64,000 nucleotides of DNA from Atherinomorus stipes (lineage: Eukaryota > Chordata > Actinopteri > Atheriniformes > Atherinidae), in NCBI GenBank assembly GCA_023101725.1, contig JALJCO010001023.1:97501-161500 (forward strand), given 5' to 3'. The first letter of the stretch is position 1; each line of letters starts with the position of its first letter. Position numbers and translations under genes: made by a program. The notes beneath the pieces are model-generated. The model saw nothing but the letters and a program-made list of their open reading frames with translations, had not been told where the DNA came from and searched no databases. Shown here piece after piece: positions 10,621-57,599 of this stretch.

Positions 10621-10967
10621 AAAAAAAAAATGAAGAAAAACAAACAAACAAACAAACAAAAAACATGCTGGACCAACGCTGATAGAACAAGATCTCGCAA
10701 GATTTTGTTTGTATCTTTTATGTAAATATATTGGTCCAAAAGATGCATGAACAGTATTTTGCCGATATCACGTTTTAATGCTATAATATAATATAAATCA
10801 CAACAAGAAAATTATGCCTGTTCCATTGGCAGAATTTTGTTTATTACAAGCAGAAACATCTCGGCCACTCTTAAAATAAGTAAAAAAGATTATTTTATTT
10901 CAATTTTTTTCGTATTTGACAATAATTACACTTAAAAACATAGTTTTTTAATGCACCTTTAGGAGTG

Positions 10968-11808
10968 CAAAGGGTTGTTCTTACGGTGGAACCCTCAAAG
11001 GCATTTCTGTTGTTCCCTCAGCAGTGAAGTTTCTACCTTATAGAGACCAGGACTGGACCTGTGGGAGCCGTCTGGACTCTAGAGACCAGGACAGGACCTG
11101 TGGGAGCCGTCTGGACTCTAGAGACCAGGACAGGACCTGTGGGAGCCGTCTGGACTATAGAGACCAGGACAGGACCTGTGGGAGCCGTCTGGACTCTAGA
11201 GACCAGGACTGGACCTGTGGGAGCCGTCTGGACTCTAGAGACCAGGACAGGACCTGTGGGAGCCGTCTGGACTATAGAGACCAGGACTGGACCTGTGGGA
11301 GCCGTCTGGACTCTAGAGACCAGGACTGGACCTGTGGGAGCCGTCTGGACTCTAGAGACCAGGACTGGACCTGTGGGAGCCGTCTGGACTCTAGAGACCA
11401 GGACAGGACCTGTGGGAGCCGTCTGGACTATAGAGACCAGGACAGGACCTGTGGGAGCCGTCTGGACTCTAGAGACCAGGACTGGACCTGTGGGAGCCGT
11501 CTGGACTCTAGAGACCAGGACAGGACCTGTGGGAGCCGTCTGGACTATAGAGACCAGGACAGGACCTGTGGGAGCCGTCTGGACTATAGAGACCAGGACA
11601 GGATCTGTGGGAGCCGTCTGGACTATAGAGACCAGGACAGGACCTGTGGGAGCCGTAAGGACTATAGAGACCAGGACTGGACCTGTGGGAGCCGTCTGGA
11701 CTCTAGAGACCAGGACTGGAGCCGTCCGGTCTTTATAAGGTGGAAGCTGCACTGCTGAGGGTACGACAGCTGCACCCTTATGGGAACCCCCCCAGTAACA
11801 ATCCTTTG
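10968..11808. mobile_element. Long-TIR MITE with an internal minisatellite
   Basis: The outer 70-80 bp at each end are inverted copies: CAAAGGGTTGTT at 10968 pairs with AACAATCCTTTG ending at 11808, and CCCTCAGCAGTG near 11016 pairs with CACTGCTGAGGG near 11750. The centre is filled by a 39-bp tandem array. The superfamily is unclear and no target duplication could be fixed. Confidence 0.65.
11040..11740. repeat. 39-bp minisatellite, 18 copies
   Basis: The unit is 39 bp (AGAGACCAGGACAGGACCTG then TGGGAGCCGTCTGGACTCT). Because 39 is a multiple of three and no unit contains a stop in several frames, long open frames run through on both strands (13-residue repeats such as GSRLDSRDQDRTC). These are a by-product of the repeat length and not evidence for a protein. 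Confidence 0.95.
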
Positions 11809-14414
11809 TAGCCGTTTGGGTTCTTTATTAAGTGCAGTAATTGTCAAACATGGTGAAATGTGAATCTGGCTCCTCATGTCAGATGGATCGCTGAAATGAT
11901 CCGTTCGGAAGAGTTTTATATGCAAATGAATAACTTATTAACATAAATATCGTATTTTTCTATGATTATTCATTTACGCCCCAAATCAAACTATTGTCGA
12001 CAAAAACTCGGCCTTTAAAGCTCAGCTGGCCTTTTCCCTTTACTCACGTCTTTCTTCCCCCCCTCTATGATATTTTACCGTTGCAACACTGGGGGTCACA
12101 TTGTACTGAATGTGGCACCTGAAATTCGACGCCCCTGCTCTCATAGATAATTATATTCAGCATTTCTGGCTGAAACAGATTAACTAGCAACAACTGAACT
12201 CCATGTAGGTCTGAGGGCAGCTCACTGACTAAAAGAACCAAAGAACCAGATTGTCAGAGGCGAATGAACCCTGCTGCAGACCTGCAGTGATGGAAAGTTC
12301 AGGATTTTGTACAGTGAAAGTCAAAGCACCCCGTTCCTGACTGAGACGCACATTCTGATATCATTTTGTGGGGGTTGAGCTGAAGCTGTGGGCAGTAACG
12401 TGCCAAAATTTCAGGATGGAACCGGGAAAAGTTTTATATCTTGGAATGAACTCAGGTACAATAATCAACATCAACATCAATCAACATTGATCCAGATCTT
12501 TTAACATCCAGTTCAGACCAAAATGGATCAAAGTGACATTTCAAACAGATGCTGTGCTTTAAAATGTGACTCCAAAGGGTCCTGACATCCATCAAGGTCG
12601 TTGGAAATGACTCATTGTTGATAATCAGCGAACAAGATTAAAGTTTCTTCTCAACTTCTTTGAACGTAACCAACAGATACTTCTAGACAAGGGGTCAGTC
12701 TGAGCTGACTTTTATTCCACACATGAAGAACGTCAAAAAAATAAGATTTAATCACTCACAAAACATCGCCAGAGTCCACCCCAGTCTCTCTCAGGCCAAC
12801 TCAGAGACGCTGAGGCATGCTGTTGTAGCACTTAGAAGGTGCTTTCTCTACCTTTTTATGGTATTTGGTTAGGGAGTGAAAAGGAGAGTAGGCCAGATCA
12901 GAAGATTTCTAAGCACGAAGGAGCCCAGGGGTGCAATCAACATAGAAACACAGTAAACACTTTTGATTAGAAAGAAAAATGTTATATTTTAAATGTAATT
13001 AATTAACCATGGTGTCAAACATAAGAATAACAAAACAAGAGCTCTCTTTGCTAAATAAATAAATTTTAAAAAATTAAATATACCCAGGTATTGTCCTATT
13101 AGTTTTTTTTATTTTTTACTGTCAGTTATAGTCTGGTTCAATGTCCATCAAATGTTCGTCCAGTGTTCAGTGTGTTGGTAACCAGTCGGCTACAAGCTAC
13201 CAGTTCGTTGGACTCTTGGGCTGGGGCTCGCCATCCAGTACTGGAAAAGGATTCACTCTCCTGCACGTCTGCAGTTCACAGCTCCGATCCAGACAGAAAA
13301 ACCTGACCTAAGGGATAAGGTCAGAATGAAGGAGCTTAAAATATGTACTATATTACTATAATACCCTTTTTGCTACTGATCAGATTTAACGCAGAAAAAT
13401 AAAACATGTTGTACAACAATACAGTTTCAAAAGATTTACAATTACCATATAAAAAAAACAAATAAAACAGTTGGAATGTGGTAATAAAGTAGTCATACTA
13501 GTTCAATTTCTCAAAGTGCATAGTCAATACACCTTTAAAATAACAAAATACCTTTAAAGTGTATTACAATAACACATTGGCTTTTAGATCTAATAATCTG
13601 TACCAAAAATAACAGATAAATAGCAATAAATTACACTTGTAGCTCTCAAGTCATTTTCTACAGTGTTCATGAACTGAGCTGAGTCTATAGCTGGTTTCTG
13701 AGCAACGTCACAGATAGGATGCGCACGCATCCAGGGGGCAATAAAACAGAGGAAAACATTATTTAACCATGAGAAGACGTGTGCTTTACATACAAAACTC
13801 GTCTTTTAATGCAGATTAGGTCAAGATATGACGTGAAAGTGTCGGGGAAATATAATGTTTGAGTCCTGGTATTTGTTCGGTTGCAAAAATCAACACATTA
13901 ATGCATGTGAGCAGGTGAAAATGGTGAAAATAGGACAGTAGGCGTGACTGATCTTCAGAAAACCCTCCCAGATAACTTATTCCGGTTCAGACTAGGATTT
14001 ATTTAGTCTTTCTCCATGGTCACATGTAGGATTAAACCACGGCGGAGGCAGAAATTATTCCCGTATTCTAGTGGGAAGACTGTAATAGCAGCATCACCGC
14101 CGCGATCGGCTGCATGACATAAACTGTAAACACTGTGTGTGACAGCCATCCTCTGCTGCTTAGACACGAACTTAAAAAAGAAGAAGAAACTGATGGTGGA
14201 GCCGTTTACGAACGTTCACGTGGCATAACAACGCATCCCGGAGATTTAGTACGAAGTACGGGGGTCGTAAATCAGATGGCGTTTGAGTTTATACTGTTAG
14301 CTTGCTAGCAGTTAGCTAGTCTGTCTCCTGTCCGCCACGATCTCATCCACAATAAAGCAGAACGTTACACAAGCAGCGAAACTTACCGACAGCAATGCGT
14401 GTTAGTCCCTAACA
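11809..14414. other. No recognised gene
   Basis: About 2.6 kb with no motif-bearing frame. At 13690-13745 a CTATAGCTGGTTTC...CCAGGGGGCAAT stretch resembles, in inverted orientation, 25055-25120 on the other side of the large transposon. The two flanks may therefore be parts of one older inverted-repeat element. Confidence 0.35.
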
Positions 14415-14430
14415 GGGTGATTCTCACGAA
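14415..14430 (+). repeat. Left terminal inverted repeat of the large transposon
   Basis: GGGTGATTCTCACGAA, the exact reverse complement of 24552-24567. Similarity stops after 16 bp. Confidence 0.9.
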
Positions 14431-14596
14431 CATGGTCTAACATGTGCCTAAACAATTCTTTGCAAATTTTAACATTTTTTTCTCTCATAAGTATCAAGTA
14501 GGTTCTGAATTAACTAGTTTTATAAAAATGTAAGATCTCTATATGTTTTTAAATACATTTTTAGGGTATTTTGTTGAGTCACTGACCAAATAAATT

Positions 14597-14987
14597 CATT
14601 ACCGTAACACATTTTCAACTGATAATTACTCAATGTGAGTAAATGTTAGACATTTTATTTTTTTTCATGTATGCGCCTGTAAATAGTTACAAATAGTCAC
14701 ATACCTTAAACATTCAAGTAAATATTTATTTATATATTTTTTTTCATCCTTTTCTTCATTACCGTAACACAATTTATTGTTCCACACACTTATTTTCACT
14801 TTAGTGAAAATTTTACGATTAAAAAAAAAAAGTTTGTTTAAATAAATGAAAAGACATGACAAACATTTCCTGTACAAAATTAAATTTTGAAGTTTTTCCA
14901 TATTACTATTAAAATATTTGCTTTTTCAGGAAGTGTTACGGTAATGAAAAGAGCATATTGGTAATGAAAAGATTTATTACGGTAATG
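14597..14987. repeat. Left sub-terminal TTACCGTAA cluster
   Basis: Four copies of a near-palindromic motif: CATTACCGTAACAC at 14597 and 14757, GTGTTACGGTAATG at 14933, and TTACGGTAATG at 14977, plus a weaker GGTAATGAAAAG at 14960. The same motif clusters at the other end of the element and I noticed it nowhere else in the window. It is probably the binding site of the element's own transposase or THAP domain. Confidence 0.8.
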
Positions 14988-15264
14988 ACGTTAATGAGCT
15001 CAAACGTATTAAAAGCCATTTGTTTAGAATTCCAACCAATCCAATATTTTACACAGTTTAAAATACAGGCCTACCAAATATTTAAATTCTTTTTAGAAAA
15101 TGACAAGTACTAGTAAAACTTTACAAAGAAACTTTATTCACAGATAGGCATCATTTGATAAATCCAATAATAATAAAAAAAAACCTTCCCTGCCCCTCCC
15201 AGTGATCAACAACAAACAGTTATAACATTAATAACATCTATTCCTAAACAAGTCATCAACAACA

Positions 15265-15605
15265 ATTCATGTTCTCTGCTCTCCTCCCATTGTTTTCCAT
15301 GTCTCGTCTCCTCTCCCATCTCCTCCCCTCCACCCCTTTCTCGTCTTCCTCCTCTCGCCTATCTTCTCACTTTCCTCACTACACTCCTTAAAAACCCTGA
15401 ACTCACAAAAACAGATATCATTTAAAACCTCAACAATTAATATAACAATCCTTTCCTCATCCTCTTTTCCCTCCTCCCCCCTAATTTCCACAATCTCCCA
15501 TCCACCCTCTCCTTTCCTTTGTCTTCCCATCTTCCATCTCCTTTCTCTTCTCTGAACTTATCCTTTCCTCTTCCCCATCTTCTTCCCTTTCTCTTCACCC
15601 TTTTC
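15265..15605. repeat. Pyrimidine-rich tract upstream of the YqaJ gene
   Basis: The + strand is almost all C and T (repeats of CTCCTCC, TTCCTC, CTTTCC) for about 340 bp. A shorter tract of the same kind lies at 22853-22978 before the transposase gene. The open frames that cross it on the minus strand are low-complexity artefacts. Confidence 0.75.
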
Positions 15606-15612
15606 ATCAAAC

Positions 15613-15676
15613 AATGGGGTTTATGCGCGGTGACTTCCTGTTTACGATAAGGCCGCTCCACGACTTCCGGTTCAGC
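15613..15676 (+). promoter_or_regulatory. Promoter module of the YqaJ/SWIM gene
   Basis: Contains, in order, AATGGGGTTTATGC (15613-15626), ACTTCCTGTTTACGATA (from 15632) and TTCCGGTTCAGC (15665-15676); the last two carry ETS-type TTCC cores. The same three blocks, in the same order relative to the gene, precede the transposase gene at 22755-22829. The module ends 48 bp before the ATG. Confidence 0.6.
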
Positions 15677-15723
15677 ACTGTCACAACCGCTGTTTACGGT
15701 CTGTGTTCACAACAACGGCTGAA

Positions 15724-18700
15724 ATGACATTTTTTACGCGCTGTCTTCAAGACCTGCCTCGCATCAACGTGGACGATGTCCATAGGCTTTTTCAGAAGCA
15801 CACTGCGACGTCCGCAAGCAAACGAGTTAAAGGATTTAAGTTGTATATAACCAACTTCATACACGATTATGAAGGTAAGTGTTTAGCTAACACCGGTAGC
15901 TCGAAGGCAGCTAGGAAAGTGACAGATCTTGGTCTATGGACAGATATATGTTTAAAATGTTGTTGATTCGGACACCGTGTTGTAACAACAATAAAAATAT
16001 AACTCACATATCGCTCACATTTAGCACAGAAATGTATTTGAACCGTTCTTTGTGCTATGGTAAATGCTTTGCTATTTTATTTGTTTTCCTAGGTTAACAT
16101 TAGCTATATTTGCTAACAAGTCACTACTTCTCTTTCTCAGTTTCCGACAAGAGTCAGACAGGAGAAGTGACAGTGAGGGCAAGCTGCTTCCGATCCATGA
16201 AGAAGAGCGAAAAGCCACATACATTGAGTGTAGGGAAATGGGAGAAGCGGGAAGTTTTCCTAAATATGACCTCAAACGGCAGTTAACTAGTTGCACCATT
16301 GGGTGACCATGCTGCTGTAATTTTCTCTGTTAATGTCGTTCTCTGGTGTTATTCAGAGGTATCTTCTCTTCTACTTTTATTATTGTGATGGGAGCTATTT
16401 AACTTGTTACATTTATTGTCAGGAGTTATAATGATTCATAATTCCATACCTTTTAAGAATTTTTGGTTTAAAACATATAACAAGATTGACAACTTTAGTT
16501 GCTATGATTATAAATTTAGCCAGTTTTAGTGCTGATATTTACTGCAAGGATTAAAAAAACAAAACAAACAATACTGTTTGTATCAACTTCTTTTACAGGT
16601 GGTTCTCAAAGACACTAAACCTGTTGAGCTGCTGAGGTACAAGTGTTCATGTGTTGCTGGGCTTGCCCTGTGTAATCACATTGCAGCCTTGCTGTATCAG
16701 TCTGCTGATTACAGCCAGAAGGGACTGACAGCTGTACCCCCGACACAAAGCTGCACAGATTCCGAACAGCAGTGGCACAAACCTCGTACCCAGGTGAACA
16801 ATCCTAATCTTATAACATATTGTTGGTATTCACACACATGTATGAGAACATCATCTGTAACTTTTATGTTCATATACAGGGCTTCAAACCAGGTCCAACC
16901 AATCAGATGGTGGTGGTATCAGCAAGACCCAAAGAAAGGAGACTGACAAAAGGAATCCGGTAATACATTACACTAAGAACAATTTTTATATTTCTCTTTG
17001 TTTCATTCAGTCTTGCTTTGTAAGCATGCACACATACAGTCTTGTTCCCAAAGCACACAGCTTGTTAACAGTGAGGCACGAGAGAAGGCATAAATGCAGT
17101 GAGTACAGTACATGATAGATGGTACCCTGCAATTTTAACAACTTATTAAAGGGTCCATTTTATGCATACTGACTTTTCTGAGTGCTTGAAATGGTCTTCC
17201 AGAGTGTTTTAACTTACAGAGACAAAAAAGCCCATAAAAACAAACTTCATAGTCACTAAGAGTCTTTAAGACTTTTAAATGAAGCTTTTTTTTTTTTTAG
17301 GATCAGCCTGACTTCAGCAATTTATTCATACGTCACTGGTTAGTCATTCCGGTCTGGAACACCGTCCACTTCCAGACCTGACTGGAAAGCACTGCTCCTC
17401 TTCTGAGACTGAGATGCTCTCTCGCTTCAGAGAGGGGTCTATTAGCATGCTGCCCTGCACAACACTGGTAGAGACCAGAAACCATGAAGCTGCTGCAGCT
17501 GTTCGCACAACGTACTCAGAAGTGCGCTTGAGAGAGTAGGAAAAAAAGTCAGTGGTGCAGCTGAAGCTCTGACGATGGATTTGATCAAACCATGACTCCA
17601 TTATTACATTAAGATATCAAAGAATTGTTTCAGATGGGGTGGGGTGATGGGGAGTGCATAATATGGACCCTTTAAAGTCTGCTCCACATTTTTGATTACT
17701 TAACTGCTCACATTGTCCAGATACACTCTTGTATGTGGAATTGTTGTTATTTGTTACAAAGCAAACAAAATTCAAATAGCAGAAAAAAAGTTTAATCCAA
17801 AGTTTGGCAGGTCAGATAAAAAAAGTCATAACTTAACTGTCTGTGAACAAAATCTCAAAATATTTAAATGAACATGTAAACCAATGATGCTATGTTGTGA
17901 TTGCAGGAGTAATTTATACAAAGCAGCCTCCAGCTTCACCTGTGAGCTTCCCGATATGACAGTGCTTCACCTGAATGATGTGTATGAAGGGATGCCAAAG
18001 GAGACTGCTCCACTTATAACTACAATGGGGATCACAGGAGATGTACCACTGGTGGACAGCGCCTTTGGCAAAGTTCAAGAGGGAAGTGTCCTCTCCTATC
18101 TCCTCCCAGCATGGAGCCCACCTAAGACATGCTTGCATCCTTCTGCACCACCACGACCATCTGTACCTCTCCAGAATTACTCTTTGGGCCCCACTAAGTG
18201 CTGCTTTGTGCTGAGCCACCACCAGCAGCTCCACATGAAGTCTCTCGAAACATCACATGACATGGCCTACCGAATTGAGGGGAGCACAAGGCAGCAAAGC
18301 GCTCTGCAGGAGTGGCACCTCTTAAGGAGGCCGCGTGTGACGTCCTCTAGATTTAGGTATGTGCAGTTTTCACCAAGTTGTGCTTTATACACTGACATGA
18401 TGTCATGTCATCTGCACTACTACTCAAAAGTTTGGGATAACGGTCTTTTTTTTAGGGAAATTGGCTTGAATTATAGTTATGAATGGACATGATGATCCTG
18501 TTGGAGAACAGTTATTATTTTGATGATGTAATTATGACTTTGTACTTAAAACTTTGCCTTGCTTCTAAAATACAGCATCAAAAAGCTGCAGCTCATCCAG
18601 ATGCTGCTGCTCGAGTTGTAGCCAGAACTAAAAGATCCAAACACATCACACAAGTTTTAAAATTTCTGCACTGGCTTCCTGTTAGTTAGAGAATAGATTA

Positions 18701-19730
18701 TAAAATCCTACTGATCATTTACAAATCCAAGAATGGTTTAAACTCAGAATACATCTGTGATAGGTCCAGAGTATAAACCCAGCCGGCCTCTGAGATCCAA
18801 GGACTTGGGCCAGCTAGTTGTGACCAGAGTCCAGACTAAACATGGAGAAGCAGAACTTGGCTGTTATGCTGCAAACAATTGGAGCAAACTGCCAGTGGAG
18901 ATTAAACTTTCCCCAAATGTAGACACTTTAAAATCCCGGTTGAAAATATTTGTGATGTGCCTATGCATGAAATCTGCACCGAATATTTTAACTTATTTAG
19001 CTTTTTTCAATCATTGCAATTAATTTTAGATTATTTAATTATGATATATTTGATTTTTTTTCTGTTTTTTTTCTTTATTCTTATTTGCTTTGAAATTCTT
19101 TTATATTATTAAATATAAATTCTTTTATTCTATATAATGCGCTTTAAATGGTGTTGTACATGAAATGTGCTATACAAATAAACTTGTTTGCTTGTGTGCT
19201 TCAGAGAAGTTTGCCATGTGAGAGGACAGTCATCTGCAGAAAGCTTGGCCGTTCGGATCTCTCGGTCAGGCTACCAAACTGCTGACATGAAGCGAGGCCT
19301 TGAGCTGGAGCCAAAGGCTGTAGAGGAGTATTGTCTGGTGCGGGACGTGAACCACTACCCATGTGGTTTCATCATTCATCCAGATGCGCCGTGGCTCGGG
19401 GCTTCACCAGATGGTCTGGTCTATGACCCAAAAGCTGAACCTACATTTGGACTGGTAGAGGTGAAGTGTCCTAATGTCAGAAGCTACGTCGATTGCACTT
19501 ACCTCAGGGTCTCTGATGACATGCTCCAGCTGAAAAAATCACATGCCTACTACTGGCAAGTGCAGGGGCAACTTTTGTTAAGTGGACTGAAATGGTGTGA
19601 CTTTGTAGTGTACACTGAGGATGACCTGTTCATTCAGAGAATCTATCAGGATGATGAAGTTTTACAAGCAATCAAAGAAAAGACTGATTACTTTTACTTT
19701 TACATTTATCTGCCCATGCTTTTGGCATGA
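15724..19730 (+). CDS. SWIM zinc finger plus YqaJ nuclease, transposon gene (six exons)
   Basis: Exons 15724-15874, 16141-16229, 16599-16793, 16880-16959, 17907-18356 and 19205-19730 have GT-AG borders and join in phase to 496 codons plus stop. Residues C96, C98, C105 and H107 form a SWIM zinc finger (CxC, six residues, CxH). Residues about 322-480 form a YqaJ/lambda-exonuclease-type domain: GLELEP, GASPDG with D391, EVK with E407 and K409, and YWQVQGQ at 438-444. YqaJ proteins are PD-(D/E)XK nucleases that resect DNA ends for annealing. In ISL2EU transposons such a gene accompanies the transposase, probably helping excision or repair of the donor site. The GTAGGG donor of exon 2 is the least certain border. 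Introns 4 and 5 hold a TTAA MITE and an L2 piece. Confidence 0.8.
17150..17671. mobile_element. TTAA-flanked MITE (522 bp) in an intron
   Basis: TTAA at 17146-17149 and 17672-17675 flank inverted ends AGGGTCCATTTTATGCA and TGCATAATATGGACCCT. TTAA duplication with short inverted ends is the signature of piggyBac-type elements. It lies in intron 4 of the YqaJ gene and has no coding capacity. Confidence 0.8.
18560..19187 (+). pseudogene. L2 LINE 3' fragment in the last intron
   Basis: Frames read AAARVVARTKRSKHITQVL then LHWLPV, RIDYKILL and SRLKIF, the C-terminal end of fish L2-type ORF2. The fragment ends with GTACATGAAATGTGCTATAC and AAATAAACTTG, the L2 3' terminus. Stops make it dead. It finishes about 17 bases before the splice acceptor of exon 6. 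Confidence 0.75.
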
Positions 19731-20370
19731 ACATTCTATGATGCTTGCACTGCTTGTAAAAAAAGAAACACAGGACAATTAAAATTCTATTGTTTGTGTC
19801 CCACACAAAGGCTATGAGATCACCTTTATTTTACTGCATCAAAATTATTTACAACAGCAATACCTAGGGATACACAACATTGGAATTTTGGCTGATATGC
19901 CGATATTTTAAAACTCATGTGGCTGATATCGATATTAAAACTTTAAAATAGATTATGTTTTCATTCCTTGTACATATTTAGAAAAACACCTCAACTTGTG
20001 TTATGAATTACAAGTCAAACTTCATGAAAAGTTGTTCAAACAAGACTAAAAGAATATGTGCATCATATCAAAGAACCGCTTGGATTTTTTTCTTCCTGAG
20101 AAAGAAACACCCAAAAACAGGAAATTTGGTTATTTACAGAAATTATCATGTATAAACTCTGTTTACACAGACCATCTAAGAAGAAACTGTTTTTAGAAGT
20201 TTTAAAGTCGAAACAGCGGCCTGATCGGTTAAATATTGGTGGGGTTTAAGGTTGATATAGGTCAGTACAGATAGTGGGCCGATTATATCGTGCATCCCCA
20301 GCAATAACTGTATCACATCAATGACTGTAATTATTCTACAACAATTACTTGGACTGTCAGATTTGATGTT
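19731..20370. other. Spacer between the two convergent genes
   Basis: Contains the end of the YqaJ transcript, a hAT MITE and the 3' end of the transposase transcript. AATAAA-like signals are not clearly placed. Confidence 0.4.
19864..20299. mobile_element. hAT-type MITE (about 436 bp)
   Basis: Ends CTAGGGATACACAAC and TCGTGCATCCCC are inverted copies of the usual hAT terminus (cAGGGATGCAC). They are flanked by an 8-bp near-duplication AGCAATAC (19856) and AGCAATAA (20300). The interior has the GCCGATATT-rich sequence common in fish hAT MITEs. Confidence 0.7.
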
Positions 20371-22592
20371 CTACTTTGCCCAAGCTTTAACCAGGGGACG
20401 ATTTTCGTAGTTCAGAAGGAGACATGCAACAGTGTACAGCTGGTTAATATTACCAAACATATTCAAAGGGATGACTGAATCGAATAACTTGTGTTCTTTC
20501 AATCTTCGAATCACACGCTCCACATGCACTCGGAGGTGTGCGATTGCCTGTGTTTCCCTGACCTCGCTTTCAGGCATTTGAGGTCTTCCTGACAGAAATG
20601 CAGGTCTGTACACCTTGCAGGGTGCACAGTTGTCAATCAGGAAGCCTCTGTCCACCATGACTGCAGAGTCTGCACGGAGAAGCCTGGAAAGTCCTGATTC
20701 CACAAAGAGCTGCTTGTCACTGATCGAACCAGCGTAGAGGGGAGAAACAAAGGTCACTGCACCATGGGGTGCTATGCCGATCATTCCTTTCAGAGTGCAG
20801 TGGGACTTATAGTTTGAATAGATCTCACTCTGTAGCAAGGGAGAAGATGGGGTTTGACACCTCAGCTTAGTGCAGTCCAGGATCACAGTGGTGTCAGCAT
20901 AGTCTCTGAACTCTAAAGGTAGGCACTCCTGGATCTTTTCTGGTGTTATCCAGATTCTCTGTGCACCAAGGACCGCAAGCAAAAAATTGCTCCATGTGAA
21001 AATGATTCTGCTCACAGTCGATTGGTGGATCTGATAGCGGTCAGCCAGATCCCTCTGCTTCAGTCCAAGGGCAAGGTAGTTCAGGAACAGGAACATTTCA
21101 TCGATTGGGTGTAGAGCCTGTCCCTGTAAAACACATAGGATATAGTTATTTGGCTGTACTTCTCTAATGTGCTCTAGTTGGAAAATCAAATAATTGCAAC
21201 TTTATGCCCTACCATGGGAGCACTCTGCTGTGCAGTGTCTTCAGAAGTTGACCTGGTCACTCGGACCATGTACTTCAGCGATGGCTGAATGACCTGCCAA
21301 AAACGCATCAGGTGGTCGTATGATGCAAACCTGGAAATAGATACTTTATTTAACCTGAGGGAAATTGTAATTAATCTATTTATTTATTTATGTCTGTCTG
21401 TCTGTCTACTAAATACAGTTTTGCTTCCTCATGCTGTGTAAATCTATCATGCTTCTGGTGAACTACATGTGCATTTGCATATCTAAAATATAAAACCTTC
21501 CTGCTACAAGCAACCATCATGTCAGACAGGGGTCTTATATATATATATTTGTATTTTTGATGTTTTAGAGACCACGAATAGGGTCATTACAAAGGTAAAC
21601 CAGTCTATGGGGGAAAAAAAGACAACATTTCCTTTCTTCTTAGTGTTTCACTCTCAGCAGATAGTGAATCCCTATTTCTCCTAATTTCTCCCTGCTGCTG
21701 TCAAGACTTTATAATCACGGTCCACCACACGTAGATGTTTACAGTAAAAATAATACTACCTCTTGAGCAATAACCGCTTTTTTTTGTTAAAAAAATAATG
21801 GAGCTCCTATAGTGACACTGAACTAAAACAGCAATAAATATGATAATGGGAATAGTAATACTGATATTATCATCATTATATTATTTATCATTAATAATAG
21901 TAATAATAAACGTTGTGGCCACGCGTATTTATTAGCCTATTATTACTATCTCACAAGAGGGGCTCCATATACCTGGCCTGTATGTGTGTGTACATATGAA
22001 AACAAGTGAAAGCAACTGAAAGCACATACCTGCTGAAAAATCGGATGTCCACGTCAGAACCAACAAATCGCTGCAACCCAAAACGTGAGAGGGACATTTG
22101 CTCCAGCTGCTGTCTCAGTTGAGCAACCTCGTCTCGAAGTCTCTTGTTTTCCTCCAGCACAATGTCCACAAAGGCAGGATCCGGGCCGGCGCAGTAATCG
22201 TGATCTTGAGCACGAACTTTTTCACTAGCTTCCACCTTCTCTGGTCGAGCCGTACGTTCCCAAACAGACAATCTTCTCTCACCAAGAGAATAATTGTTCC
22301 AATGGAAAAGAACTGGAACGGCGCCGGGTTTCAGCCTCCTCCTCCCACCTGCCTCACTCGGCTCTTTGACATCCTGCGCTGTAAAGTGTCTACTGCAGAC
22401 ACGGGTGTGATTAGTGATGGTGAAGTTTTCCCTTCTGATGTTCACAATCCATCTCTTTCGTAGTTGATCATCCGACGGAAATGTGTGAAAACTAATGACC
22501 GAATTATATTTCGCCGACACGGCACACAAAGGAACACAGCAGTGTTCAGCCGTTGTCCCTTCACGTCGCTGAAACTTGAAAAACGGCTTCAT
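20371..22592 (-). CDS. THAP plus DDE transposase of the large element (three exons)
   Basis: Minus-strand exons 22592-22030, 21330-21213 and 21123-20371 have GT-AG borders and join in phase to 477 codons plus stop. Residues 19-93 are a THAP zinc finger: C19, C23, C66, H69, the invariant W48, and an AVPVLF end. A leucine-rich coiled-coil segment follows at about 150-175. Residues about 245-290 are a helix-turn-helix of the DDE_4 type (LKQRDLADRYQIHQSTVSR). The catalytic triad is D310 (ILDCTKL), D385 (VDRGF) and E429 (VERVIRRLK). This is the complete set for an active IS5/ISL2EU-like transposase, which would bind the element's ends and cut and join DNA. No frameshift or stop is present. Confidence 0.85.
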
Positions 22593-22754
22593 CTCTTACT
22601 ACTTCTACTACTACTACTATTGCTACTGTTATATCGATATATAAATATGTACTATCTTAAAGGTTAAAATACAATCTGTCGTCTTGATAATGATCAATAT
22701 CTCATTCATATGTATATTTCCGTCTTCAATCTACCGCCACAACACATCCCACAA

Positions 22755-22829
22755 GCTGAACCGGAAATCCTTTCACTGGCGTATAGTAAACCGGAAGTTC
22801 TAAAGAACGCGTCATGCATAAACCCCATT
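22755..22829 (-). promoter_or_regulatory. Promoter module of the transposase gene
   Basis: Read on the minus strand: AATGGGGTTTATGC (22829-22816), ACTTCCGGTTTACTATA (from 22798) and TTCCGGTTCAGC (22766-22755). The 14-mer and 12-mer are exact matches to the module before the YqaJ gene and keep the same order and orientation towards the gene. The transposase ATG lies 163 bp downstream. Confidence 0.6.
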
Positions 22830-22852
22830 AACAGCTGCCAACAACAAAGATG

Positions 22853-22978
22853 GCCATTCTCTTCCATCTTTCTCATCACCTTCTCTCCCCTCTTCTTCCT
22901 ATCTACTTTATTTTGTATTCTCCTCATCTTATACCTCTTTTCCTCTCTTCCAACCCCCTTACTCATCTCCATTTTGCC
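22853..22978. repeat. Pyrimidine-rich tract behind the transposase promoter
   Basis: Mostly C and T on the + strand, comparable to the tract at 15265-15605. It overlaps the end of the third gene's last exon. Confidence 0.6.
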
Positions 22979-24110
22979 CAGATTTCTGCAGCAACACTAA
23001 AATGCCGAGCAGAAGATGTTGCCGGCATTGGTTCAGGGATAATATCCTTTATCTTCTCTCTGTAATACCAAACCTTTTCCCCTGGTAACTTGATGGAGGG
23101 TGTATAGAATTTGTTTACACCAGCACAGTTCATTGTGTCAACCTCGTACTGGTCCTCCACAATCTAGATAAGAAAAAATATAAAGAAAATGAAAGCTTAT
23201 TATTACAACAATAATGCACTGTGCTCAATGTTTGTGTGAGACATTTAATTTTTTTACATTCATACATTTTCTGTACCATACATTGCCTCAGAGTAAAGAA
23301 CAAAAGACAGTTTCTTGCTTTCATGTTCACTCCTTGACAAAATGTTCCACAATAATGATTCCAGCACATGTTTAATACTTGGATAACCAACTGTAGCACA
23401 TTCATACCTCTGTCACAATACCAGGATACAGATCTCCTTCATAATCGACCAGCACCCATTGCCCAACTCCAATGGAGTCCTTGTCTTGGTCTTCTGATTC
23501 TCTGAGGATGACCTCTTTTAGTGAGTAGCAGTCACAGGCAGGCCTGCAGAAGCAAGATACCTCCCTCACTTTTATCTTGCCTGGATCTGTTGCAACAAGC
23601 TGCCCTTGCCTTTGAAGCTGCCCTTTTTCTCTCCATCTCTCCTGCTCTAAATGTAAAAAGTTATTCAGTATTCATTAAATATGTTATTTGTAAATTATTT
23701 ACATTAATTCTTAATAGTTGTATCATTAAAGATCACCATACATTCAACACATTCATTACCATAACAGTTTTGTTCATTACCGTAACAGCCTCAAATGTTA
23801 CACGGTAATGAATGCAGAGCATTACGGTAATGAATGAAAAAAGCATTTAGCTAGCAATAGCTAGCATAGATAAGCATGATTCAGCAGAAATATTTTCAAC
23901 ATCATTTTGGCTCTATTAAAGCTACTTTTCTATTGATTATCAAATCAGTATCTTTTAAAAAAAATTAAATATGCCCCATTACGGTAATGACCATTAGTGG
24001 TGTACCCAGGGGTGTCTGTAAACACAATCTTTAACAAATCTATAATTTAACAATTAAAACTTATCTTACCTCGTTGCCATCTTGCATCCTCTGTTCCAAG
24101 CAGTACATCA
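22963..24110 (-). CDS. Third gene of the transposon, SH3/Tudor-like, 5' end unresolved
   Basis: Two firm minus-strand exons: 23646-23408 (acceptor ATTTAG, donor GTATGA) and 23163-22963 (acceptor TATCTAG, stop TGA). They join in phase. An upstream piece ending at a GTAAGA donor near 24070 reads ISHDVLLGTEDARWQR and fits the phase, but its start is not visible. The protein contains a cysteine-rich CFCRPACDCY, then GQWVLVDYEGDLYPGIVTE, EVDTM and GEKVWYYREKI. The WVLVDYEGDLYPG strand pattern resembles SH3/Tudor-type small barrels that bind peptides or DNA. I have no firm family. Its position inside the termini, on the transposase strand and upstream of it, suggests an accessory transposition protein. 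Confidence 0.6.
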
Positions 24111-24386
24111 TGGGAGATTAAAACTTTATTTAATCAAATACAGGGATTTTAATGGGGCCAAAAAGCTGTGCAACGGTAATGAACTCCAAATGCTCCGGAC
24201 ACACAGATTTGTTAAAATATATTTGAATTGATAAATGTTACACCAAAAATGAGAACATTATTTGTTAAAATGTACAATTTTAACTGTTTTTTGTACTTAT
24301 GTTTCTATTAAATTAGGCAGTTTTATTGTGATATTTTGGGGTTAAATGTAAAAAAAAAAACAGTCCGGACACATTACGGTAATGAA
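23754..24386. repeat. Right sub-terminal TTACGGTAA cluster
   Basis: Seven copies in both orientations: CATTACCATAACAG 23754, CATTACCGTAACAG 23775, TTACACGGTAATGAATG 23797, ATTACGGTAATGAA 23821, CATTACGGTAATGA 23977, CAACGGTAATGA 24171 and CATTACGGTAATGAA 24372. They mirror the left cluster. Confidence 0.8.
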
Positions 24387-24551
24387 TATTCTGACAGAAA
24401 AAATGTTTTAGAAATATGAATTAATGCCTCAAGTACAAAGACAACAATAGTCCCACATAAAACACACACTGCAGTTTGATGTAGAATAAATTGTTTTGAT
24501 TATTTTAGCTATTTTGACCTTCATTTCCTCACAGACATGACCAAAAGTAGT

Positions 24552-24567
24552 TTCGTGAGAATCACCC
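24552..24567 (-). repeat. Right terminal inverted repeat of the large transposon
   Basis: TTCGTGAGAATCACCC, the exact reverse complement of 14415-14430. The flanking base pair is AA. Confidence 0.9.
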
Positions 24568-26142: not shown

Positions 26143-27200
26143 ATGGCAGCGGAGAGCGGTTCTTCGTACGAGTCCACAGTGAACACGGCGGCTCTTTACA
26201 AATGTAAGTTTGTGTTGTTTTTCTTAATGCCTTTTACCATGAAGAACCACCAGCTGCGGTCATTTTCAGTGTATTTGTGGTGTACCGATGTTAATTTTAA
26301 ATGCGAACGGTGTTGCAAATGCTAATGCTAGTTAGCTATTAGCTGCCGGGTTACGAAGCATTACCCACAATAACCAGGCTAATAAAAATAACCGGTGTCG
26401 GTACACGATCGTCATGGGCCAGAGAGTGTACGGCCAATAGTACACGGTTATAATAGTATTGTTCCGTCTAAATTATTGAAGTATTTTAACTCTGGCGCGC
26501 CGTGGTGCTTTCACTGTCGGCTCGGTCAGCTGCACTCATATCAACCAAAGATTGAATTTCCCCGTTAAATGTTAATGTGGTAAATGGAATGAGTTTTCCC
26601 CTTCACTGCTGGGGAGGCTGGTATCAGAGCCAGGCTTCACTGCTGGGGGGGCTGGTGTCAGAGCCAGGCTTCACTGCTGGGGAGGCTGGTGTCAGAGCCA
26701 GGCTTCACTGCTGGGGAGGCTGGTATCAGAGCCAGGCTTCACTGCTGGGGGGGCTGGTATCAGAGCCAGGCTTCAGTGCAGGGGAGGCTGGTATCAGAGC
26801 CAGGCTTCACTGCTGGGGAGGCTGGTATCAGAGCCAGGCTTCAGTGCTGGGGAGGCTGGTATCAGAGCCAGGCTTCACTGCTGGGGAGGCTGGTGTCAGA
26901 GCCAGGCTTCAGTGCTGGGGAGGCTGGTATCAGAGCCAGGCTTCACTGCTGGGGAGGCTGGTATCAGAGCCAGCCTCAGACGGGTAGATGGTTTGTCAGT
27001 ACTACCAGCATTAGTTATGGAGGTTTTATCTGTACCATTATTTGTTCACTTATTATATGATTTCTGTAACGTATGTTTTGCTCTTTCTAGGGTCAGACGA
27101 GGATACCCGGGGACTCATTGCCTGGAGGGGCACTGTGGCATTTATCTGGCAGTACATCCTGGGGTTTGGAGGCTATGGGGAAAAAGGGAAAAATGTCTGA
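26143..27200 (+). CDS. Tiny two-exon gene with half a Myb/SANT-like domain
   Basis: Exon 1 runs from the ATG at 26143 to 26203 (AAAT, then donor GTAAGT). Exon 2 runs from 27091 (after CTCTTTCTAG) to the TGA at 27198-27200. Joining restores a tryptophan codon across the junction and gives WSDEDTRGLIAWRG, the start of a Myb/SANT-like DNA-binding domain of the kind carried by Harbinger elements and their domesticated relatives. The product would be only 56 residues, ending GFGGYGEKGKNV, so the domain is incomplete. AATAAA directly overlaps the end (27201). The intron carries an 11-copy minisatellite. This may be a truncated transposon-derived gene or the 5' end of an alternatively spliced one. 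Confidence 0.45.
26605..26985. repeat. 34-bp minisatellite, about 11 copies
   Basis: The unit is CTTCACTGCTGGGGAGGCTG then GTATCAGAGCCAGG, with variants GTGTCAGAG and CAGTGCTGG. Open frames through it reflect the repeat and not a protein. It lies in the intron of the putative small Myb-like gene. Confidence 0.9.
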
Positions 27201-27584
27201 AATAAAATCAGTTTAATTTATATTAATAGTGGTGTGGTTTTGTATTTTTTTGCTGTCTTTTTTTTTCATTTACTTATTTTTTAAAGAAGTGTCCTCACAG
27301 TAACATGCTGTAACACTGATGCCTCAATAACAATGATGTAATATAATTACATTTTAATCACATTATGTATTATGTCAACGGAGCTCAAATCTGAGGTCTA
27401 CAGGAGCCAGTCCCGACTCAACCCAGCAGAGGTAACCAAATCAGACCAGCAGAGACTTTGATGGCAGATGAAGCATAAGAAAATGAGTTATGAATCACAG
27501 AAATGTATTACATATATCGTTGTGTACAACAATACTGTATAACAAATGAGTAACAACATGTAATTGTTGATTATTAATCAAGTA
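27201..27584. other. No recognised feature
   Basis: AT-rich sequence after the small gene; nothing else visible. Confidence 0.4.
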
Positions 27585-38767: not shown

Positions 38768-39412
38768 CTACTTGCTACAGGCTGACGATGGTGTCATGAT
38801 TGCAGTGGGACGCTGCAGGCACTGGTGTCCTCCATCTCCCAACAGGAAGTACCCAGCTGGTGGATACGGGGCCTCGCGGTACATTGGGGATCTTCTGAGC
38901 ACAAGCGCATCATGCACTGATCCTGGTTGGCCAATATACACATCAAGGAATCTTCCTCTGGCATCACAAATGCTCTGCAGGAGGAAGGATCCGATTGTGG
39001 CACCCATAAATGGCCCCCGCAGCACACCGAAGGGCACCATGGCCAGCAAAGTCCGCAAAGCCGGCCCCCACCTCCTCCTCTGGTCTCCTCTGGGAAAATG
39101 AATAACTGTGTGGAGGATGGTCATCATTTCCTCCACAACGGTGTGCACTACCCTGCACACTGTGGCGAGTGGCATGGCAAAGATGTCTGCCGTTACCCTG
39201 TAGGACGATCCACAGGCAAGCCAGTAGAGCGGGACCAGCACCTCAACTTCATGACTCCATCCATGGCCTTTTTCCCGGGGCAGTATCTGGCGCAGCATGG
39301 CGATGCTGTTCCTGGATAGACTGAAGGCTGGTTTCATATCTGCTCCAGAGAAGAAGATAGCCACGATCTTCAGGATAGCCACATTATTATTAATTTGTGC
39401 ATACCTCTGCAA
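38768..39412 (-). pseudogene. PIF/Harbinger transposase (HARBI1-like) pseudogene
   Basis: The minus strand encodes YRVTADIFAMPLATVCRVVH (helix-turn-helix) and CDARGRFLDVYIGQPGSVHD then LGDGGHQCL, the D2 region of the DDE domain. Between about 39158 and 38964 the correct frame shifts: FAGHGALRCAAGAIYGCH carries Tyr where the first catalytic Asp (AIDGCH) is expected. With two frameshifts and a lost catalytic residue it cannot be active. Confidence 0.75.
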
Positions 39413-39704
39413 GGGGCCTTGGTCCTGTTAAAAAAGAATATGCATGTATGTATATATAACCAGATGACTACAGACCAGTTGCAATGACATCTCACATCAT
39501 GAAAGTCCTGGATAGGACAAGTTCTAAGAAAGAAAAAACAAAACAGACGTGATGCTCATGGTTTAATAGTTTAATTAAAGGAGCAGCTTGTGATTTTTAT
39601 GATGGTTCTGCAGTTCAGAGACAGTGCAGACTGACGGGCAGGCAAATGGAGAACCGCAATGGCAGGTTGACAGTGGGAGCACAGGGTGAAGGGGGAAGGG
39701 GGAG
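39413..39704. other. No recognised feature
   Basis: Short spacer before the SINE. TTAAAGGAGCAGCTTGTG at 39576 may be an unpaired end of a TTAA element. Confidence 0.35.
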
Positions 39705-42748: not shown

Positions 42749-44423
42749 AGTATTACTATTAGAGATGCACCGATCCAGGCTTTTCCGATCCAATCCCATA
42801 CCGATTTAGCCTTGTAGCAAATTAACATAGATAGAGATATACTTAATTTGATCTTTTAACAAATAAAGTGTACATTTTATTTTGATATCAATAAAAATGG
42901 AAATGACGGACTTCCGGTGACCAGCGATGGAGTAGGCAGCAAGTTGCGGGCTCCTGCGAATATTTCTTCTCTAACTGTTAATACTATTCATAATCATATT
43001 TGTGGTAGCACTAAGGCTTGGTGAATTATGTCAAAATCCAGCAAGGGCAGCAGGAAAGATCATACAGCGGAGTGCTCTTCTGCGGGCGCTGGCGCAGCTA
43101 ACGGGGCTAGTGGAGCACTGACCGTAACGCAGGTTTCGGATTTACTTGAGAAGTTTCGGGAAAGTCTTGCAGCTGATTTCAAGTCTTCATTTGCGACCCT
43201 AAACAACAAATTGGACACAATTCAGTCGACTGTCTTAGGACACGGACAACGTATCGGCGACCTCGAGTCCCATGCTAATGATGTTAGCCGACGCCTGGAG
43301 CTGCTGGAGATGACGAGCTCAGAGTTACGTGAAGAAAACAAGTTGCTGAAGTTGAAACTTTCCGACCTCGAAGGGAGAAGCAGACGCCAAAACATAAGAA
43401 TTGTGGGCCTACTGGAGTCCGTTGAAGGCCCACAGCCTACAGCATTCTTTTCTCAGCTTCTTCTGGAGGTGTTTGGAGACCGGGTTCTGTCCTCTCTACC
43501 CGAGTTGGACAGAGCGCACCGCATTCCCATGCCGAAACCGGGGCCAGGTGGACGCCCTCGTCCTGTCATCATTCGCTTTCACCGATTTCAGATTAAGGAT
43601 TTAGTGATGAGAGAGGCACGGAAATGTGGGACTGTGGAATACCAAGGACATAAGCTTCGTCTGTACGAAGATTACAGTTTTGATGTGCTGAAGAAACGGC
43701 CTGAGTATCGGGACGTCATGGCTCAACTTTACAAGAAGGGACTCCGGCCATCTCTTCTTTATCCGGCGAAGCTGCACTCCCAAGCGGTGAGAGGCAGTGG
43801 TTGTCATCAGTGTCAGAGGCTACCGACCTTGGCCGCGTTTCCCAGATTAGTTAAGACACTCTTAACGCTGAGGTCCTCCTTAAGTCACTTCTTAAAGGTG
43901 CCTTGTTTGGACGTTGCGTTTCCCAGATGCGCTCTTAACTTAGTAGCTTCTTTATTTTCAGGAGCGGCCAGACCCACTCTTTCGACCCTTCTTTAACGTT
44001 CCCCCCTGCTAAGGGAACAACAGGCCCATCTACTGGTCACTTTTGGAAACGACACTATTTCCCGTGAAAAAAAAGTAGAAAATGGAAATTATTAAAAATG
44101 GACCTATTCACGGATCAGTTGTTGTATTGAGTCATGTTTTCTCACTCATGTCATAATGTCAATCATCTATGATGGAAGAAAACTGTAGTTACCGAGTGAA
44201 TGACAGAAAATATTGTGGTTAAGTTTAATCATTATGGCAAGATAGGCCTAATTAGTTACTGTGGGTATCAACCACAGAAACAAAAACATTGCGGTAGGAA
44301 TTGAAAATACGCAATCTATGAGGACTCACGTCATATTTACGCATTTGTCAGCTGTTCATGATGAGATGCACCTGCTTCGCTCAATAAAAGCATGGCCATT
44401 TACGCATACCCGTATCAGACATC

Positions 44424-44798
44424 ATGGCTGCTTTACAGCAAATTTTGGTAGCAAACCAACAGCGTCGCCGTAGACGGAGTGACACTGTGTATGTACATGC
44501 TTTCATGCGCCAGCATCTCAGTCCTCTAGATGTGCTGTCAGATCGCGCTATTCAGATGCGTTACAGGCTACCGCGCGACGAAATCGAGCGGATCATTCAA
44601 ATAGTTGCTCCACACATCAGGAGGCCCACAAGGTGCAACTTTGCTCTGAGCCCAGAGGTGCAGTGCCTGGCTGCGTTGCGTTTCTACGTGGTGGGGAGCT
44701 TTCTGGAGGTAGTGGGGGATGGAACCGGACTCAGCAAGGCGTCGGTGTCAGTCGCGCACACTGCAAGGGCTGGATGGGGACATTTTCAGCGCTATTGA
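44424..44798 (+). pseudogene. Truncated HARBI1-like transposase (N-terminal part)
   Basis: From the ATG at 44424, 124 codons encode RYRLPRDEIERIIQIVAPHI, then LSPEVQCLAALRFYVVGSFL and DGTGLSKASVSVA, the N-terminal helix-turn-helix region of Harbinger transposases. The DDE domain is missing because the frame runs into the reversed Myb ORF. Confidence 0.75.
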
Positions 44799-44988
44799 TT
44801 GCCATGCCCTGGCCTTTGCTTCTATGTCTTTTTTCCCCTTTGTCCCTCCAAAGAGAATGCTTTTTTTTACCTGCCACTTCTTCAATCAGAATCGCCATCT
44901 CCTCTGGCGTGAAGGCCGGAGAGCGCTTCATCCTCTTGGCGGGGTTCCCTTCAGCCATTACGTCAACAAATAGCGTCAGAATGACCAT
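44731..44988 (-). pseudogene. Truncated Myb/SANT-like accessory protein of Harbinger
   Basis: The minus strand reads EGNPAKRMKRSPAFTPEEMA then ILIEEVAGKK, the beginning of the Myb/SANT-like protein that partners Harbinger transposases in DNA binding and nuclear import. It ends by running into the transposase remnant. Confidence 0.65.
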
Positions 44989-45923
44989 TATTTATAGGGC
45001 ATCTGTAAATTTCCAATCGCCTACACCTGTTTAGCACAATTTGGCCAATTACACAATATACAATGAGCTTTTCAATGAATATTTGCAATCACTGGTAATC
45101 ACATGCATATTTTTAACAGTTTGTCTTCTTGCACAAACACATAAACGTATAAATGGGCTCAATATCAGCGTCGGAAAATAACCCCCACACTAAATGAATG
45201 GTGTCGATCGATATACCTGACCTCGATTGCTTTTTTTTCAGCACCGCCGGAAGTGGATAGCTTCTGTTAGGACCTTCTAAAGATGTAGCGTAGCCAAGAC
45301 GTTTCTCAGGAAATAAGAACGCGTGAAAGAAGCAATCTGGGAAACGGGCGTATCTTTGCGATCCTTTGTTGGGAAGAGCTTCCTTGAGGCCTTCTTTAAT
45401 CCAAAGAAGAATCTTAACTGGGAAACGCGGCCCTTGTCCGATCCTTAGAGGAGGACCAGCGCTCGTTATCGTGAGTGGAGTGGAGGTGTACCTATTCCTG
45501 ACCTGCTCAAATTTACTAGTATGCATAGCTGACTGAATCTAACTGGACTGCTGCTTGGTATCTACTGTATACCAACTGGTTCATTATTCTGTTTATTATG
45601 CGTGAGACTACATATTGACTGTTTGGGTTTGACCTCCAAGTTATTTAGGGGTTAAGTGTTATTATTGTGCAGGAGAAAAGCCTTAGCAAGGAAGTTATAT
45701 TATTGAATGACTTGTTGGAGTATTGGTGCTCTAGTGGTTGCTGTTTTTGGCAACCTGTTTTTTGTTCTTGTTCTGAGAGTTTTCTTTTTTAGGATGGCAG
45801 TTTTTTCTTTTTTTTTTTCCTTTTTTTTCTTTTCTTATTTTATTTTACCCTTTCCTCTCCCTCACGCCCACTCAATACTCAATATCATATTTGTCATTTT
45901 CTTTCTGAAGTTGATAATGGTAG

Positions 45924-48900
45924 ATGAACAGCAATCTTACTTTCACTAGTTGGAATGTGAAGGGGCTAAACCATCCGGTAAAACGTAAAAAAGTCTTTTC
46001 ACGTCTGAGGCAGCTCAGGTCTGGGGTAATCTTTCTACAGGAAACTCATCTGAGGGATCGGGATCACTGGCGGTTGGGGAAATGTTGGTCTGGGCAGTAT
46101 TTTCATTCAAACTTCAGTGCAAAAGCTAGGGGTGCTGCTATTCTAATTAATCAAAATATCCCTTTTGTTGCATCTACAATCCTATCGGATAAAAATGGAC
46201 GATTTGTTATTGTATCAGGCAAACTTGGTAACAAACATGTGACACTTGCTAATGTTTATGCTCCCAATCTTGATGATGCTCAATTTTTCCAAAATTTTTT
46301 TCTCCAAACTCCCTGATATGAATTCTTATTCTTTAGTTCTGGGGGGAGATTTCAATTGTTTAATGGATGCATCACTAGACCGTTCCTCCTCAAAACCTGC
46401 CTGCCCAAATAAATCTGCCACATACATCAAATCTTTTCTTCAGGATTTTAGTATCACTGATCCATGGCGTTTTTTATATCCAAATGGTAGAGACTATTCT
46501 TTTTTTTTCTCACGTACACCACACTTACACCCGCATTGACTACTTTTTTATGGACAACCGGTTACTTCCAAATCTCAGATCTTGCAGTTATGAAAGTATT
46601 AGAAGAATTTCTGATCATGCCCCTCTTGTCGTCAAAATGGCTTTACTGGACAATGATTCCATGAAAAAGCGCTGGAGACTTGATCCTTTCTTGCTTTCGG
46701 ATGAGAATTTTGTTACATTGACCTTGTCCAAAATGAAAACTTTCTTAAGTGAGAATAGAACTCCAGGTATGTCCTCCCAAACAATTTGGGAAGCCATGAA
46801 GGCTTTTCTAAGGGGAGAAATAATTTCATATGCAGCATTCAAAAGGAAATCTGTAATACAGAAACAAAAGGATCTCTCGGATCAAATATTGAGCATAAAT
46901 AGACAATATGCACAATCACCATCACCTTCGTTATATAAGGAACGACTGAAACTACAGACCAAATTTAATATACTTTCTACCCGTCAGGTTGAAGGCTGTC
47001 TTATTAGGACTAAGAGTGATTTTTATGAACATGGTGAGAAAATTGGTAAGATCCTGGCTAATCAGTTGCACAGTGTTAGAGCCAAGCAATTGATACCAGG
47101 TGTAAAAACTGACAATGGGAACATTTCATCAAATCTGAAAACAATCAATGATCATTTTAAAGTGTTTTATTCAAAATTGTACACCCCTGAATCGACCGCA
47201 TGTTTGAGTGATATGGAGGTCTTTTTTGACACTATTAATGTTCCTTCACTGTCCCCGGATGTAAGACAAAGTCTTGAAGCCCCTATCGCCCAGGAAGAAA
47301 TTAAAGCAGCTATATCATCCATGCAGTCTGGAAAATCACCAGGACCTGACGGGTTTCCGACAGATTTTTTTAAAGGAGTGATGACATAGCAGTTAAAAAC
47401 TAGTTTATGTTGTTGGCATTACTGCATATGTAAATACTCCAAAGAAAAAACGGCATTTTTTACAGCGGAGTATTGTTTTGAAACGCCAGACCTCACTTCC
47501 TCAGTAATACAGTTGGGTCCGGTGATGATATGGAGCTTTACCCGGAGACCACGTTGACTTCATTTTGATTGGCTCACCTTATTTCGCTATGACCTTATTT
47601 GGAGAATCTAGGTCAAGCTGCGATCGGAGTTTGCTAAAGGCTAACTGCTAGCAACAATCCAGACAGTGAGCTACGTTTATCAGACAAGACAGCATTTAGA
47701 AAATAAATAAACTTACAGGTAATGACAAGGTTGTGGCCCCCTCCCTCAGTGTTGCTGCAGAAGTTTTCTTTTAAATCCATTTGTTTGAAAATCCAGACCT
47801 GACTGCACAGAAGTTACTACTAGCTCCATACGAAGCTGAATCAGACAGGGAGGGGGGGGGGGGAGCGGACGGTGCATCGGCCGTTAGGAGAGAGAGGGGG
47901 GGGGGCGCTGTTTACTTGATAGTGTGCTCTTATTGGAGCAATTAAATTACGTAGAATGATAGAACTACGTAGAATGATAGCCTGCTGTCTGATTCAACTG
48001 TTTCTGAGCAGAGAAACAAAGCTGACAGACCATAAACAGGAACTTTGATTCTCACTCTGGACATTCACATGGCCTCATCAGTGCCACAATAGATCATATT
48101 ATACCCCAAAACCCCAGAAAAGTGAAATTTGATGTCATGGCACCTTTAAGACATTTTCAAGTGATCTCTCATCTTTTGTGCATTTGGTCTTTACTGATTC
48201 GCTGGAGTTTGATGCCCTTCCTCCCACATGTTATCAGGCCTGTATTTCTTTGCTGTTAAAAAAGGACAAGGACCCAGTGGATTGTGCATCTTATAGACCT
48301 ATATCTTTTACTAAACACCGATGTGAAAATACTGGCTAAATTGCTGGCTCCCCGGCTGGAAAATGTCCTTCCTTATATTATCTCTCCTGACCAGACCGGT
48401 TTTGTTAAAAATCGCCATTCCTTTTACAATATTAGACGTTTGTTTGACATTATCTACACATCTAACAATAAAACAGAAGAATGTCTGATTTCATTGGATG
48501 CTGAAAAGGCATTCGACAGGGTCAATTGGGATTATTTATTTTTTACCTTGGAGAGGTTTGGCTTTGGCCCCTTATTTTGTTCTTGGATAAAACTGTTATA
48601 TAAATGTCCTTTGGCTTCAGTGTTAACAAATATCCAATATTCAGAATATTTTAGGCTGTATCGTGAAACAAGGCAAGGCTGTCCTTTAAGCCCCCTCTTA
48701 TTTGCTTTAGCAATTGAACCACTAGCTATTGGGATCCGTGGCAGCGGGGAGATACGGGGCATTTGTAGAGGTAAATTTGAGCACAAGGTCTCGCTTTATG
48801 CCGACGATTTGCTTTTATACGTTTCTGACCCACTTAAGTCGTTACCTGTAATACTCCAGATGCTGGATAATTTTGGAAAACTGTCTGGTTATAAAATAAA

Positions 48901-57206: not shown

Positions 57207-57599
57207 GTAGAAATCCTCAGAAACACTGTAGGAACTGCAGTCTCATTCATTAAATGAACTCACTTCTCACCCTGTAATGCAGATGTAGAATCAGGTGCTC
57301 TTGATCTCTGCACCACAGAACAGTATGTTTGCATCTTATTTATTACTCTGGGTTCATTAGCATAGCACAGTCAGGGGGAATAGCTTGATCCCCATGGTTA
57401 CGATTCTGTTAGAGCCACTGAGTGTTCACAATGACATTGCATGATAGATTTTGTTTGTTTATTCTTATCATAGAAAGAAAAGATTATGCAACACAACTTT
57501 GGCTTTTGCCCTTTACTCTAAATCACCACATTTTATATCTGATGACAAACTAAAATGGACCAAATGCCACAATGTTGTTCATAGAAGAGAATAAATTAA
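57207..57599. other. 5' flank of the TAAR gene
   Basis: No clear TATA box or repeat seen; it holds the presumed promoter. Confidence 0.35.

Follow-up and report, generated by a model that had tools for sequence, protein, structure and literature searches.

Genes and ends of the inner element

The window analysed here, a 64,000-nt stretch of contig JALJCO010001023.1 of Atherinomorus stipes, very probably holds two DNA transposons of the cut-and-paste type, one nested in the other. The inner element occupies 15616-22826 (7,211 bp) and carries two convergent genes, which start 108 bp (gene 1) and 234 bp (gene 2) inside its ends, while the outer element comprises 14415-15613 plus 22829-24567. Gene 1 (15724-19730, plus strand) encodes a predicted YqaJ-type nuclease of 496 codons in six exons (15724-15874, 16141-16229, 16599-16793, 16880-16959, 17907-18356 and 19205-19730). 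Gene 2 (20371-22592, minus strand) encodes a predicted transposase of 477 codons in three exons (22592-22030, 21330-21213 and 21123-20371). These exon borders were those named in an earlier, first-pass annotation of this DNA, and for both genes they gave an open frame without a stop.

The spliced transposase matched the Pfam models THAP (8.2e-20), HTH_Tnp_4 (1.1e-10) and DDE_Tnp_4 (3.8e-36), which is the combination of DDE, HTH and THAP domains expected of an ISL2EU transposase. The residues D310, D385 and E429 and the THAP finger, all claimed previously, were found in the spliced protein, its domains and the alignments. The second gene expected of ISL2EU, encoding a YqaJ exonuclease domain, was recognised in the nuclease by Pfam (YqaJ, 4.7e-20; Viral_alk_exo, 6e-10) and by comparison with solved structures (exonuclease 3syy, 5e-16), and its claimed residues D391, E407 and K409 were likewise present in the spliced protein and the alignment. 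The HMM searches proposed with the first-pass annotation were thus borne out for THAP, DDE_Tnp_4 and YqaJ, whereas the SWIM model gave no match to the spliced proteins at E <= 1. Residues 96, 98, 105 and 107 of the nuclease form CxCx6CxH, which we take to be a SWIM pattern, and some of the listed nuclease matches bear the name 'SWIM-type' in their source.

An open phase by itself is little proof of a gene model, because many other GT-AG combinations were also open: 812 alternative transposase models of more than 440 codons and 108 alternative YqaJ models of more than 400 codons. The chosen models are favoured by their domains and by the relatives that align along them. All 17 relatives in the transposase alignment run along the protein, P0036 being without a short internal stretch. 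In the nuclease alignment, 17 relatives match over the later part. The first exon has a counterpart in four or five (P0126, P0127, P0136, P0138 and, more weakly, P0190), the remaining ones being annotated with other starts. Of the columns that show strong conservation in the other rows, the transposase keeps 129 of 132 and departs at 3, and the nuclease keeps 108 of 110 and departs at 2; each is among the better-kept of the 18 rows of its alignment. One departure is Lys 313 of the transposase, three residues after the catalytic D310, at a position that is almost invariably Glu in the relatives; P0042 likewise has Lys there. Judged from these alignments, both ISL2EU proteins look intact. A scan of viral contigs gave no relatives of the nuclease, nor of the transposase when its alignment was used.

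ISL2EU elements are reported to create an AT duplication in the context A|AT|T, to have ends beginning with GG, and to contain a YqaJ gene besides a transposase with DDE, HTH and THAP domains (available part of PMC4482050). The inner ends stand in the context A|AT|GGGGTTTATG ... CATAAACCCC|AT|T. On the left, the sequence across the border is ACA AT GGGGTTTATG; inversion of the right end likewise gives GGGGTTTATG, bordered on its outer side by AT followed by T. The two copies of the target duplication lie at 15614-15615 and 22827-22828, giving A-AT at 15613-15615 and AT-T at 22827-22829. The terminal inverted repeats (left, 15616-15676, plus strand, about 61 bp; right, 22755-22826, minus strand, about 72 bp) are imperfect, contain gaps and start with GGGGTTTATG, in agreement with the GG start and the length of 6-259 bp by which membership in the group was judged. 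When the 101-bp inner ends were aligned with gaps (61 left against 72 right bases), they scored 24.5. None of 1000 resampled pairs reached this value, and 2 did so among 1000 pairs drawn at random from the window. With the first 10 bases removed, a score of 22 remained, which no pair in either control (1000 each) attained. Taken on its own, the exact core of these ends, 13 bp long, was not significant: at <=2 mismatches, two or more matches arose in 45 of 100 shuffles. A 2-bp AT duplication is by itself weak evidence. As read from the letters, the inner ends are equal to the published ISL2EU signature. The earlier claim of an ISL2EU-type element with intact-looking THAP-DDE transposase and YqaJ genes was upheld.

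Age and activity of the inner element

Three guest-like repeats were found in the inner element. The first, in intron 4 (17146-17675), is MITE-like, with 21-bp inverted ends (95%) that both have TTAA. The second, in intron 5 (18669-19185, plus strand), consists of pieces of a dispersed repeat, apparently of the LINE type, which also occurs on the minus strand at about 60165-59667 and 36699-36642. The third lies between the genes (19864-20301) and is also MITE-like, with the ends CTAGGGATACAC and CTGGGGATGCAC and CAATA on both sides; its family is presumably hAT-like. All three are in noncoding DNA, and the coding parts are whole. The guests seem to have landed after the arrival of the ISL2EU element, and they may be common to all copies of the family. 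Because of these three insertions the copy need not be recent, and a very recent arrival is less certain. No match to the element was found elsewhere in the window except for the LINE-type pieces, and the window is thus without a second copy.

The THAP finger and the HTH of the transposase would bind DNA, and its DDE domain would cut and join it. The protein probably binds and cuts the inner ends in a cut-and-paste process and inserts the element at AATT, as in its group. The nuclease may trim the DNA ends that excision or insertion leaves behind, or assist in their repair; the available part of PMC4482050 states the function of the extra ISL2EU genes as unknown.

It is possible, though on balance doubtful, that this copy remains active and autonomous. 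Both genes are open and keep their catalytic residues, departures from conserved columns are few, and neither of the ends nor the duplication is missing. ISL2EU transcripts have also been reported in several teleosts, without proof of activity (available part of PMC9179366). However, the terminal arms are imperfect, and the three guest-like insertions suggest some age, though all of them lie in introns or between genes.

Several further features were noted in the window. A fragment of another transposase, Harbinger-like and with a partial DDE_Tnp_4 match (2.8e-07), lies at 38771-39427 (minus strand). A LINE-like element broken into several frames lies at 43025-50487 (plus strand), with a reverse transcriptase match (4.9e-36) and an ORF that matched Transposase_22 weakly (8.2e-4, short of the Pfam cut-off). 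An intact-looking, single-exon GPCR gene was found at 56223-57242 (minus strand; 7tm_1, 5.2e-60), which looks to us like a trace-amine-type receptor. Minisatellite-like tandem repeats at 10952-11824 and 26556-27205 leave several frames open. No tRNA was found in the window with bacterial settings, and no Rfam match reached the gathering score.

The outer element and the probable nested insertion

The outer element is bounded by a perfect 16-bp terminal inverted repeat (14415-14430, plus strand, and 24552-24567, minus strand). This repeat had been claimed in the first-pass annotation and was confirmed here, its sequence matching the window perfectly at two places. Of 100 shuffles, 2 likewise yielded two or more matches when up to 3 mismatches were allowed. 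The alignment score of the outer ends was 16, which was reached in 6 and 8 of 1000 in two controls. Beyond the 16 bases no similarity between the ends was detected (score 9, reached by 529 and 203 of 1000 in the controls), and no target duplication of 2-12 bp was found at the outer ends, which are flanked by CA and AA. These two facts make it less sure that the outer element is one intact transposon. When viral contigs were scanned for the 16-bp end, 8 single matches were obtained, about the chance expectation for so large a collection. No paper containing the letters of the ends and the motif was found in the open-licence part of PubMed Central.

The left arm (14431-15613) contains CATTACCGTAA-type sites at 14597, 14757, 14936 and 14977 and a pyrimidine tract at 15277-15613. 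The tract continues at 22829-22975 in the right arm (22829-24551), which contains further CATTACCGTAA-type sites at 23754, 23775, 23820, 23977 and 24372. The sites in these arms are palindromic and of the CATTACCGTAATG type. A short remnant of a gene, with conservation in five proteins of fish, lies in the right arm (22963-24130, minus strand) and has exons at 24130-24070 (open further upstream), 23646-23408 and 23163-22963. Its product had five short relatives, all from fish, in a search that considered only proteins of 0.55-1.75x the query length, with a query one residue short at an exon join; because of this length limit, full-length relatives would be missed. The product had no match in Pfam, and the structure predicted for the protein family (5 sequences) had a mean pLDDT of 32 and was not used.

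With at most one mismatch, CATTACCGTAA was matched 12 times in the window (9 sites, three of which are read on both strands), compared with at most 3 matches in 100 shuffles. Every one of the 12 lies in the arms between the outer ends, and neither the inner element nor the rest of the window contains any. The C+T content is 79% to the left of the inner element (15277-15613), 78% to its right (22829-22975) and 50% across the whole inner element. When the window was read in 337-bp steps, the two highest C+T values were at 15251 and 15301, and in 147-bp steps (n=2,555) the step by the right inner end ranked 5. Such a pattern would be expected of a single tract divided into two pieces.

Very probably, the ISL2EU element at 15616-22826 jumped into AATT within the pyrimidine tract of an outer transposon with its ends at 14415 and 24567, and AT was duplicated. 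This conclusion draws on the ends, the target duplication, the gene models, the domains, the conservation and the split tract; the insertion of ISL2EU at A|AT|T and its two-gene content are taken from the literature. It is very unlikely that the outer 16-bp ends still work and that a transposase of the outer element, encoded elsewhere, moves the whole 10.15-kb unit with the ISL2EU element as its cargo, the outer family being an undescribed one.

The first-pass annotation had instead read the locus as a single ISL2EU element of 10,153 bp with three genes and 16-bp ends. The perfection of these ends would fit such an element, as would the position of the third gene and both ISL2EU genes between them. 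Nevertheless, this reading is hardly tenable. The outer ends start with GGG, yet they are without the A|AT|T context or a duplication at 2-12 bp, whereas the inner ends have this context, the AT duplication and the GG start, and are closer to the gene starts. Moreover, the motif sites and the pyrimidine tract are confined to the outer arms, the tract being split at the inner ends, and the ISL2EU elements described in the available part of PMC4482050 carry two genes. The 16-bp repeat thus does not mark ISL2EU ends, which are better represented by the pair 15616/22826; the third gene (24130-22963, minus strand) belongs to the outer element; and the length is 7,211 bp when measured by the ISL2EU ends. 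As improbable is a takeover of the ISL2EU genes by the host for a function of its own. Nearly every strongly conserved position is retained in the two proteins despite the guests, which would fit such a use, but the element still has its two ends and the target duplication, and its relatives in many teleosts form repeated families, judging by their member counts.

With the nested reading, a vertebrate ISL2EU element that may be complete receives corrected borders. Tests of mobility or of the role of the YqaJ protein need the ends 15616/22826, and would fail trivially with the 16-bp outer ends. Furthermore, the case shows how an annotation based solely on inverted repeats and open frames can fuse nested transposons into a single 'new' element.

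Relatives and comparison with known ISL2EU elements

At E <= 0.001, 443 proteins related to the transposase and 432 related to the nuclease were found; only 7,993 candidates were scored in the transposase search, and 120 were listed for each protein. The named rows among these 120 were nearly all from teleosts. Non-teleost labels among the listed nuclease matches were the nematode Cylicocyclus nassatus and, as a second label on P0150, 'Mustela putorius'. The former belongs to P0127, which is 53% identical over 99% and is filed under this horse nematode on a 17-kb contig; the label reflects either contamination or horizontal transfer. Among the matches listed, the nearest nuclease was from Perca flavescens (74% over 79% of the query), and the nearest transposase was LOC121642613 of Melanotaenia boesemani (P0001), 85% identical over its whole length and, compared as a protein, with the same three domains. 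In Mugilogobius chulae both genes have consecutive tags (WMY93_005449, P0082, and WMY93_005450, P0143), and the gene pair is thus also seen elsewhere.

The first-pass annotation had supposed that complete vertebrate copies would be uncommon. This is unsupported, given the 443 and 432 relatives and the 12 of 25 ISL2EU families in which both genes are intact (available part of PMC4482050). ISL2EU elements were also reported in five of eight teleosts examined, with transcripts in some and no proven activity (available part of PMC9179366). With such plentiful relatives, intact families and teleost reports, the completeness of this copy is no surprise, and the element is a tidy example of the known ISL2EU type.

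Compared with the ISL2EU group of the PHIS (PIF/Harbinger-ISL2EU-Spy) superfamily, as described in the available part of PMC4482050, the element shares the AT duplication in A|AT|T, the GG ends, the DDE/HTH/THAP transposase and the YqaJ gene. It differs in length, since autonomous ISL2EU elements average about 4,840 bp there as against 7,211 bp here, part of which is guest DNA, and in that the present copy sits inside another transposon. The teleost ISL2EU elements covered in the available part of PMC9179366, where families and transcripts are counted, have the same two genes as the element described here.
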